Shown: piece by piece, positions 56,758-59,289 of the stretch
Numbering within the stretch: the stretch's first letter is position 1
Layout: every line of letters begins with the position of its first letter
From: Symbiodinium natans
Lineage: Eukaryota > Sar > Dinophyceae > Suessiales > Symbiodiniaceae
Assembly (NCBI GenBank): GCA_905221605.1
Contig: CAJNDS010002109.1
Span: 292,501 to 356,500 of the forward strand
Direction of reading: 5' to 3'
Length of the DNA stretch: 64,000 nucleotides
The notes under the pieces: model-generated
Seen by the model: only the letters and a program-made list of their open reading frames with translations
What the model was told of the DNA's origin: nothing
The model's database searches: none
Translations under genes and position numbers: made by a program

Positions 56758-59289
56758 ATGGCTGCGATGATTGTGTGGGCAGCCTTCTGCGCACTCCGCG
56801 CTGCAGCGGAAGAGCCAGATCTCGCGTCGAGGCACCGCTGTGGAAGTTAAAGCCCTGGTTTCAAGGCCCAAAGGGTCCACGAACCCATATGAAGTAGGGT
56901 TTATATCACTGTTTTTGGTGAGTGTATATAAGGTTCCCTCTGCCGTACTTCATATGGTACATAGGCCCAAGATGGAACAGTAAGGTAGCCACTTTGGGGC
57001 CCAAGCATTTCCCATACTGGTACCATACTGGTACCTGGACCCTTAGGGCCAAACGCCTGTGAGTGCTCTTGACCGTGGGTCGGCTTCGGGGTTTAGGGTT
57101 TAGGATTTCGGGTTTCGGGTTGGGGTGTTCCCCCTTATACTAACAGCCCCTTACTAAGGATTTTTATGGGGGGTACGATAATCCCCATGAAGGACTGTTA
57201 GTGTTAGGGGGAACATCCCAAGTTAGTTTCAGGTGAGGGTTTTAGGGCTTGGGTGGTTTTGGGTTAAGTGCAGCGGCGTTTGGCTCGGGTGCGTTGAGGG
57301 CACTCTGCGGGAATGTGGAACGAGTATGTGTGTGTGTGTACATGTGTATATCTATATACATATATGTATATGTGTGTGTACTTAGGCAGCGACGACCTCT
57401 GACTGCATAGAAAGAAAGAACGAAAGAAAGAAAGAACGATAGATAGACAGAAAGGTACACACACACACATACTTTGGTGGAGTCCTGGGGAGATGTCATG
57501 CACGTCCCTACCAGTAGACCCCCAAACCCTAAGACGCAAACCCGAAACCACACTGTAAGGAAATATACAGCTTAGGGAACCCTAAACCCTAAGCCTTAAG
57601 CCCTAAGCCCTAAACCCTTGTCAAAACCCTAAACCCTAAACCGTAATCCCTAAACCCAGAACACCGCCCAAGGCTGCCAGAAATGGCCTTGCCGCACGAT
57701 GACGAGTGTGAGGACTCCTCCAACTGCGCCTTGCACGCCCTGCAGATCCAAGGTGCGCAGCACACAGCCCCTGGGCTTCAGGGGGTTGTTGGTTGAGTTT
57801 AGGGTTTAGGGTTTAGGGTTTAGGGTTTAGGGTTTAGGGTTTAGGGTTTAGGGTTTAGGGTTTAGGGTTTAGGGTTTAGGGTTTAGGGTTTAGGGTTTAG
57901 GGTTTGATCCCGGTAGTAGGGAGGAAGGGTTTTTGGTTTTTAGGGCTTCGTCTAGAAAATTTGGGCTGAAGTTTCCCCTTGGAAATGACGAAACCCCAAG
58001 ATAGAGGGCCTCATTCTTGTTCACGAACGTCGCAGCGCCATGTTTTGGTTCTTGGTGGGGCGCAGCGTGTGAATGCCAAAGTCCACCTGGAAGAGAGCGC
58101 TTGGGGGGTTTAGGGGTTCAGTGGGTTAGTGCTCTGGTTCCTAAAAGTCCTCTGGTGTGAATGTAACCAACACTGGGGGGGTTAAGCAAATTATGGGCCC
58201 TTTGTGCTACCCTAAACTAGAAGGAGTATAGTAGAATAGAGACCCCAAAAGGGACCATTATTTTGATCAGCTCCCCACCTAAAAACAGGAAAAGAAAATG
58301 GGCAAACCAATAGCAAGTGCTCAAACTGACACCTTTCGGACACAGCTGCGAGGGTTTAGGATTTATTGGGTTTATAGGGTTTATACGGCTTAGGGATTGG
58401 GGGCCCGTTGGGGGTTGGGGGTTTAGGGCTCAAACCCTAAACCCTAAACCCTAAACCCTGAACCCTAAACCCTAAACCCTAAACCCTAAAGGGGTTTAGG
58501 GCTAAAAATGAGGTGCAGGCATCAGACGGCAAGTCCTCAGCAAGCTGCCCAACGAAATGCGGACGGTGCCACGCGGGTGGTAAGAAAGATGGTGGCAAGG
58601 ACTTGGCGTTTAGGGTTTAGGGTTTAGGGTTTAGGGTTTAGGGTTTAGGGTTTGGGGTTTAGGGTTTAGGGTTTAGGGTTTAGGGTCTTCGCCCGAAACA
58701 CTAAAAGGACTTGGCCCAAATCTCTCAAGCTCTTGGTAGCCCAGTGGTACCCTTTGCCTTTTTTTTTTTGGTTTCCCTTACAAAGTAGCAAACCCAAAGA
58801 AGGGTGCCCTTATCAGAATATGGTTACTGGGCCACCAAGGACCTGCATATTTAAGTTCTGAACCCGAAAGGCTATACATCCCTACAACGCCCTCATGCAG
58901 AGGACTTGGTGAACGGCATGTGCACCTACTACTGCTCCGTCTTCGGCTACTGTGGCAATGGGCTACTCTATGGGACCCCGCACTCCGTCGACTGCCGATC
59001 TTGTGATGGGCTGGTCGCGACGTATACACCGAGCACACCGAACCCAAACTGTCCAGCGCGATGCACACGGTGTCACGCGGGTGGTAAGAGCGACGGCGGC
59101 CAGGACTTGTCCTTAGGGTGTAGGGGTTTAGGGTTTAGGGTTTAGGGTACCGATCTAACCCGCTAAACTCACCCTCACGGGAAGGACTTGGTGAACGGCG
59201 TGTGCACATACCGCTGCTCCGCTGCCGGCTACTGTGGCAATGGATTACTCTATGGGACCGGCAAATCCGTGGACTGCAGTCTCTGCTAG
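56758..59289 (+). CDS. Five-exon gene for a secreted protein with two hevein-like Cys modules; introns hold telomeric repeats
   Basis: Proposed join: 56758-56831, 57673-57752, 58526-58599, 58903-59103, 59185-59289; 534 nt, 177 codons plus TAG, all phases agreeing. Exon 1 codes MAAMIVWAAFCALRAAAEE, a typical signal peptide with cleavage likely after the AAA. Exon 2 codes DDECEDSSNCALHALQI. Exon 3 codes SCPTKCGRCHAGGKKDGG. Exon 4 codes DLVNG-x-CTYYCSVFGYCGNG plus a second CPARCTRCHAGGK unit. Exon 5 repeats DLVNGVCTYRCSAAGYCGNG and ends DCSLC. The C-x3-CS-x2-GYCGNG core resembles chitin-binding hevein modules, so an extracellular carbohydrate-binding or wall role is possible but unproven. Donors are GC, GT, GA, GA. 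Introns carry MITEs (56885, 57120, 58732) and TTTAGGG arrays. Alternative: a decayed gene, though no stop interrupts it. Confidence 0.65.
56885..56957. mobile_element. MITE-like element, family G, in intron 1
   Basis: Perfect 12 bp inverted ends CCATATGAAGTA / TACTTCATATGG, 73 bp; interior GGTGAGTGTATATAAGGTTCC resembles 14478-14500. Confidence 0.82.
57120..57221. mobile_element. MITE-like element, family B, copy 3, in intron 1
   Basis: TTGGGGTGTTCCCCCTTATA start and the inverse AGGGGGAACATCCCAA end; inverted arms of about 30 bp including CTAACAG/CTGTTAG; 102 bp. Confidence 0.85.
57797..57904 (+). repeat. Interstitial telomeric array in intron 2, 15 TTTAGGG units
   Basis: Perfect heptamers 45 bp behind the proposed exon 2 donor. 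Confidence 0.97.
58609..58686 (+). repeat. Interstitial telomeric array in intron 3, about 11 units
   Basis: TTTAGGG with one TTTGGGG, starting within ten bases of the exon 3 end. Confidence 0.97.
58732..58839. mobile_element. MITE-like element, family A, copy 4, in intron 3
   Basis: CTTGGTAGCCCAG start, CTGGGCCACCAAG end (one mismatch), 108 bp; interior GAAGGGTGCCCTTATCAGAATATGG as in copy 2. Confidence 0.85.

Follow-up and report, generated by a model that had tools for sequence, protein, structure and literature searches.

Telomeric repeat arrays as ordered components of introns in a cysteine-rich protein gene of Symbiodinium natans

Introduction

Introners of dinoflagellates are reportedly the subject of a study by Roy et al. 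2023. Such elements are described both in dinoflagellates and in Amoebophrya (excerpts of PMC7789003 and PMC9860276). Interstitial telomeric sequences of mammals are described as insertions at double-strand breaks, and 31% of the human ones lie in introns, a share compatible with random insertion (excerpts of PMC7215372). In dinoflagellates, the telomere unit is given as TTTAGGG.

Here we analyze a gene in a 64,000-nucleotide stretch of Symbiodinium natans DNA (the window), whose introns carry arrays of this unit. The locus resembles introner systems in three respects: (i) its third intron holds a dispersed intronic element, mostly co-oriented with neighboring copies; (ii) AGGACTTGG stands at splice sites as a candidate target duplication; and (iii) inverted repeats are present that would be able to bring splice sites together. 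Unlike in introners, the inverted repeats are telomeric arrays that are not bound to one family, and no general outer terminal inverted repeat (TIR) was found. With the mammalian sequences the locus shares short arrays, sometimes accompanied by the direct target duplication that staggered breaks leave, whereas telomeric units here amount to about 7% of sampled bases and take a preferred order at exon-sized gaps. For introners, excerpts of PMC7789003, PMC9860276 and PMC11453091 do not mention telomeric units at the ends of introns. Likewise, we found no dinoflagellate report of telomeric arrays at intron ends in excerpts of PMC11453091, PMC11508785, PMC7789003, PMC8045281, PMC9498494 and PMC9860276, and the main text of PMC8045281, as excerpted, has no word starting with "telomer".

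Results

The window covers positions 292,501-356,500 of a 671,160-base contig, in its interior and not at its end, and its G+C content taken together with 14 sampled stretches is 51.5%. Several features lie away from the gene. The first 12 kb are higher in G+C and hold a single telomeric unit; long, overlapping open frames at 2771-11534 (+) resemble a non-LTR retrotransposon. A 455-codon open frame at 33536-34903 (+), in a stretch richer in A+T and poorer in telomeric units, resembles the family B DNA polymerases of virus-like elements. A hexamer array of AGAGCT occupies 40908-41032 amid telomeric arrays, and 46130-46305 consists almost wholly of a repeated 9-mer, (CCCTAAGCT)n, which is telomere-like but differs in period.

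A preliminary description of the window, made from its letters, had joined five islands in phase into 177 codons, and from those islands we obtain the same count, with 534 nt including the stop. The deduced protein was searched against its own genome (an assembly of 759,417,921 bases in 2,543 contigs); 22 candidates were scored, giving 21 matches at E up to 10, of which two were significant besides the window's own exons and the rest had E of at least 0.3. On contig C2474 (225141-225683) lies an intronless copy in one open frame, 46% identical over residues 1-177 (E = 9.1e-25). A third copy, on contig C249, is 95% identical to that of C2474 over 450 nt and carries counterparts of introns 1 and 2 at homologous positions, without introns 3 and 4. 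A chain of exons put together by chance from open frames can hardly be entertained: open frames abound in the sequence and one junction had been misplaced, but the single-frame paralogue over residues 1-177 rules it out, and the intron positions common to C249 and a dN/dS below 1 also speak against it.

The C2474 copy is, judged from its sequence, a processed cDNA copy of the gene family, since it is intronless and has a relict spliced leader upstream, ending at L004:1417, 83 nt before the start codon, and scoring 29 against a best of 23 among 300 resampled sequences (leader sequence from an excerpt of PMC8045281). We read this as a sign that the family is transcribed and spliced. It has the same make-up as the relict spliced-leader retrogenes of dinoflagellates, which are intronless with a leader upstream, and nothing about it is unusual. 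The C249 copy looks like a pseudogene, because it has lost its start codon and contains a frameshift. The region before it has a weak likeness to the leader, equalled by 3% of resampled sequences, and its lineage may have gone through an older retroposition, so the lack of introns 3 and 4 there is no proof of their gain in the window gene; they are absent in C2474 too, but that copy is a retrocopy. Comparison of the window gene with C2474 gave a dN/dS of 0.20, with dS saturated at 2.6.

The intronless paralogue and the intron-bearing third copy shift the second junction, which had been placed at 57752/58526, to 57766/58513. The exon after intron 2 opens with GTGCAG in C249, as the window does at 58513 (compared by eye), and in C2474 GTGCAG runs on directly from the sequence before it. 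Aligned to C2474, the model with the donor at 57766 yields 81 identities and 19 gap positions, where the earlier model yields 76 and 28, and it reads ALQIQGAQHT/VQ where C2474 reads ALQRHGSLGT/VQ; this exact donor of exon 2 is the best fit and not proven. The corrected model has 186 codons, with donors GC, GC, GA and GA and AG/G at all four acceptors (Table 1), in keeping with the dinoflagellate cis-intron rule of a GT, GC or GA donor and an AG acceptor. Boundaries of the GC-AG and GA-AG kinds make up 25-74% in Symbiodiniaceae (excerpts of PMC11453091). On the sequence evidence, the gene is thus real, with five exons and a predicted protein of about 186 residues.

Its introns do contain telomeric repeats, as first described, although these had been counted in three of four introns: all four carry TTTAGGG or CCCTAAA units (2/5, 19/8, 10/0 and 3/0 in introns 1-4, counted on the earlier junctions). 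With the paralogues, this supports a complete gene with telomeric repeats inside its introns.

Table 1. Exons, introns, telomeric arrays and other repeats of the gene, in window coordinates
Feature	Position	Strand	Evidence or remark
Exon 1: start codon, signal peptide (by eye)	56758..56831	+	C2474 match; C249 intron at homologous position (phase 2, within one codon, by eye)
Intron 1, GC..AG, phase 2	56832..57672	+	
MITE-like inverted-repeat element, intron 1	57116..57226	.	Both-orientation copies in window, L011 and L025; shorter fragments in L031, L032 and L036
CCCTAAA array, 18 nt before exon 2	57627..57654	-	
Exon 2: acidic pro-region DDEC..CALHALQ	57673..57766	+	Alignment to C2474; codon scan still coding to 57769; earlier end 57752
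Intron 2, GC..AG, phase 0, inverted telomeric arrays towards both ends	57767..58512	+	
TTTAGGG array near intron 2 donor	57798..57902	+	
CCCTAAA array, 22 nt before exon 3	58435..58490	-	
Exon 3: start of Cys module 1	58513..58599	+	GAG/GTGCAG common to C249; earlier start 58526
Direct repeat AAGGACTTGGC, left copy, across intron 3 donor	58597..58607	+	
Intron 3, GA..AG, phase 0	58600..58902	+	
TTTAGGG array, 9 nt past intron 3 donor	58609..58685	+	
Direct repeat AAGGACTTGGC, right copy, end of telomeric insert	58705..58715	+	
Introner-like MITE, intron 3	58727..58840	+	Copies in window, L022, L030 and L031
AGGACTTGG, intron 3 acceptor	58901..58909	+	Candidate target duplication with 58598-58606
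Exon 4: end of Cys module 1, start of module 2	58903..59103	+	In-phase joining, C2474 match, module alignment
AGGACTTG, intron 4 donor	59102..59109	+	
Intron 4, GA..AG, phase 0, 81 nt	59104..59184	+	
TTTAGGG array in intron 4	59127..59147	+	
AGGACTTGG, intron 4 acceptor	59183..59191	+	
Exon 5: end of Cys module 2, stop codon	59185..59289	+	In-phase joining, C2474 match, module alignment

The encoded protein is small, cysteine-rich and probably secreted (the signal peptide was judged by eye). The C-x3-CS-x2-GYCGNG and CPxxC-x2-CHAGGK motifs noted before are present, two of each, in two eight-cysteine modules. Six such modules, taken from three gene copies, have 18 invariant columns in common; dN/dS between modules 1 and 2 is 0.38. 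The 177-residue model matched no Pfam family above cut-off and no PDB entry at E up to 10, single modules had no Pfam match above cut-off either, and the C2474 protein, the sole NCBIfam query, had no match there. A likeness of the modules to hevein domains was not borne out by profile search: no hevein-type chitin-binding domain (PF00187) came above cut-off, with one of six modules at E = 1.5. A profile match of the modules to an NKG2-D chain in PDB (E 0.018), which no stretch passes alone, was discarded as chance. The most likely role, as we read the sequence, would be that of a secreted disulphide-rich extracellular or wall protein. On contig C1817 (445244-452940; L013-L016) tandem gene copies about 1.5 kb apart carry a precursor motif, DDxC..xCxLxALQ, that is also found in the pro-region of the window gene protein, and this motif may be the mark of one class of proteins secreted by dinoflagellates.

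We sampled the genome at arbitrary positions in 14 stretches of 10 kb (L024-L037; 20 were chosen and 6 contigs were too short), eight of which lie on contigs that also appeared, at other positions, in the own-genome protein search. These 140 kb hold 1,417 TTTAGGG/CCCTAAA units, the 7% of bases given above, with 181-258 units in six stretches, 0-10 in six and intermediate numbers in two; the density is two-sided, as though each gene or region had been either invaded or spared.

The arrays are ordered around exon-sized gaps. Among neighboring arrays of the window and the 14 other stretches, gaps of 100-160 bp with CCCTAAA on the left and TTTAGGG on the right number 62, against 27.5 (sd 4.1, maximum 44) over 2,000 orientation shuffles; the TTTAGGG-CCCTAAA order accounts for 20 gaps and the same-way orders for 14 and 12. 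Leaving out the window, the same classes number 38, 10, 6 and 8. The central G+C of the CCCTAAA-gap-TTTAGGG class is 0.615, against 0.525-0.555 in the other three orders, and its median best codon score is +1.9, compared with about -2.4 in those orders. Two such gaps are occupied by exons 2 and 3 of the window gene. The codon model (1,641 codons, trained on six open frames) is weak, finding 136 segments against 109 in reversed sequence, and 36 against 11 above a score of 10; exon 4 scored best on the wrong strand. Genome-wide, with overlapping starts counted, CCCTAAA..TTTAGGG at spacings of 95-125 occurs 163,885 times and the opposite order 53,725 times; since the same order also leads at 220-250 (263,046 against 144,295), the raw ratio is not specific to exon size, and because starts inside arrays are counted, raw counts at different spacings are not comparable.

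Strand-aware counts were made on 28 exons, comprising 15 ankyrin-like, eight kinesin and the five of the window gene, where a single array may count for both neighboring exons, as in intron 4. Within 50 nt, the acceptor side has CCCTAAA in 12 and TTTAGGG in 2, and the donor side TTTAGGG in 9 and CCCTAAA in 1 (Fisher p = 0.0005). Within 130 nt, the acceptor side has CCCTAAA in 15, TTTAGGG in 4 and none in 9, and the donor side TTTAGGG in 10, CCCTAAA in 8 and none in 10. The arrays are ordered, then, with TTTAGGG mostly after donors and CCCTAAA mostly before acceptors, and with exceptions. The 15 ankyrin-like exons belong to one gene, with boundaries set by eye, at the sampled locus L031, where exons often stand between CCCTAAA and TTTAGGG arrays; Pfam on three of them gave one sub-threshold ankyrin match (E 0.022). 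The kinesin exons (eight of 20 selected) were picked for short frames with their flanks unseen. Five of the eight have arrays within 130 nt and L044, L049 and L050 have none; L045 fits the order on both sides, L048 and L051 fit it on the acceptor side, L046 breaks it with TTTAGGG 46 nt before the acceptor, and L047 with CCCTAAA 76 nt after the donor. Pfam searches of 20 single short exons gave sub-threshold matches only, in 7 (to ankyrin, TPR/PPR and GYF, for a beta-amylase exon with 25.4 bits where the cut-off is 27, and isolated others), so in loci rich in interstitial telomeric sequence exons were identified by codon score and by eye. A test of the letters at array ends (819 matches) was uninformative, because the arrays run into degenerate units.

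The two MITE-like elements that had been proposed in introns 1 and 3 are borne out by copies elsewhere (Table 1). The intron 3 element has the many dispersed similar copies expected of an introner: its 21-nt end occurs in 1,620 exact copies in the genome, 845 forward and 775 reverse. Among the first 100 places listed, 56 of 62 neighbors on the same contig are co-oriented. Dinoflagellate genes sit in co-oriented clusters (excerpts of PMC11453091), and the co-orientation would fit an element that works as an intron one way round in such clusters. The TTTAGGG array between the intron 3 donor and this MITE is flanked on both sides by the 11-bp AAGGACTTGGC. AGGACTTGG stands at both donor and acceptor of intron 3, and AGGACTTG at both donor and acceptor of intron 4; of six occurrences of AGGACTTG on the window's + strand, five are at intron 3/4 splice sites or inside intron 3. 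Intron 3 thus looks two-layered, an introner-like MITE plus a telomeric array at the donor, and in the simplest history the introner would have come first and the array second. Target duplications between consecutive exon islands as a general rule were rejected, with no excess of direct repeats (2 of 54 against 4.6 expected). A second array, in L031, is flanked by GCCCAGTG and lies inside a relative of the intron 3 MITE.

Direct duplication at the junction, as break repair would leave, is found more often than expected among the arrays overall. In 30-nt flanks, 11 of 319 arrays, the one in L031 among them, have direct repeats of at least 8 bp (2.9 expected) and 3 have repeats of at least 10 bp (0.15 expected), with a smaller excess in 20-nt flanks (4 against 1.4); 5 of the 11 look like degenerate telomeric words, and most arrays have no flanking repeat. 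The arrays had been called intronic filler; intronic they are, but "filler" does not suit sequences with a preferred order at exon-sized gaps and splice sites and with direct repeats above chance.

Intron 2 with its flanks has a predicted folding energy of -321.6 kcal/mol, where 20 shuffles average -272.4 (z = -6.4). In the minimum-energy structure the telomeric arms are paired; in the centroid structure they are open, probably owing to many competing registers, and the fold is plausible rather than shown.

Discussion

We think it likely that this is a genome in which mobile introner-like elements made introns that also received telomeric arrays, a reading built on the gene structure given by the paralogues, the arrays as intron components, their preferred order, and the MITE and repeat-flanked array of intron 3. 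For the origin of the arrays and the reason for their orientation we propose the following. Telomeric repeats would have been added at staggered double-strand breaks during repair, entering introns in this way, and would persist where splicing tolerates them. TTTAGGG contains TTTAG/G, a potential decoy acceptor that would be harmful beside a real 3' splice site, and CCCTAAA, having no G, would offer neither donor nor acceptor. Where both arms are present, the pre-mRNA could fold and bring donor and acceptor together. Weighing against this reading, inverted similarity outside the arrays is missing, direct repeats between consecutive islands are not in excess, and arm lengths do not clearly correlate.

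Local growth by slippage from short heptamer seeds in introns, with only splice-compatible orientations surviving, is possible, though we consider it unlikely. Degenerate units do surround the arrays, and TTTAG/G decoys would account for the bias on the acceptor side; avoidance of decoys alone, however, predicts no donor-side preference, yet TTTAGGG outnumbers CCCTAAA there by 9 to 1 within 50 nt, and some arrays are flanked by direct repeats.

We also consider it unlikely that introners carry the arrays as their terminal inverted repeats, both arms arriving in each insertion. In its favor, a TIR would produce the array order, introners are known from dinoflagellates, and in one L031 intron the sequences just outside the two arms match. 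Against this, the outer flanks of 88 TTTAGGG..CCCTAAA pairs, examined for inverted similarity outside the arrays, are no more alike than those of shuffled pairs (mean 6.23 against 6.15), so that a general TIR outside the arrays was rejected; introns 3 and 4 have the TTTAGGG arm only, and some arrays have direct repeats of their own.

A bolder proposal, which we regard as doubtful, is that many introns are telomere-born: telomerase would have healed both ends of breaks in coding sequence, and rejoining would have left TTTAGGG next to the donor and CCCTAAA next to the acceptor; the inverted arrays would have been spliced from the start, folding out and supplying or tolerating splice signals.

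It is very improbable that the arrays are relics of chromosome ends or telomere fusions in a once subtelomeric region, with the gene a bystander or pseudogene: the arrays have the telomere unit of dinoflagellates and end-to-end fusion also yields the TTTAGGG..CCCTAAA order, but they are short (median 37 bp, maximum 246), they lie inside many contigs beside exon-sized gaps, the gene is under constraint by its dN/dS, and the window's interior position and the arrays of at least 3 exact units in 8 of 14 other 10-kb stretches, heavy in 6, point away from chromosome ends, as the preliminary description had already suggested of the arrays.

Telomeric repeats are usually viewed as chromosome-end DNA or scattered scars, whereas those described here, at about 7% of the 140 kb sampled, tend to be ordered round exon-sized gaps. 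Telomere-type DNA in this genome looks like a common gene component and not a matter of chromosome ends alone, and in such species, counting telomeres by reads or probes may register introns besides ends. If many introns were indeed telomere-born, telomerase would be a source of new introns. If cDNA confirms the splicing, these genes would be a natural large-scale experiment on inserted simple repeats tolerated or used by the spliceosome, and would bear on whether telomeric break repair makes or enlarges introns.
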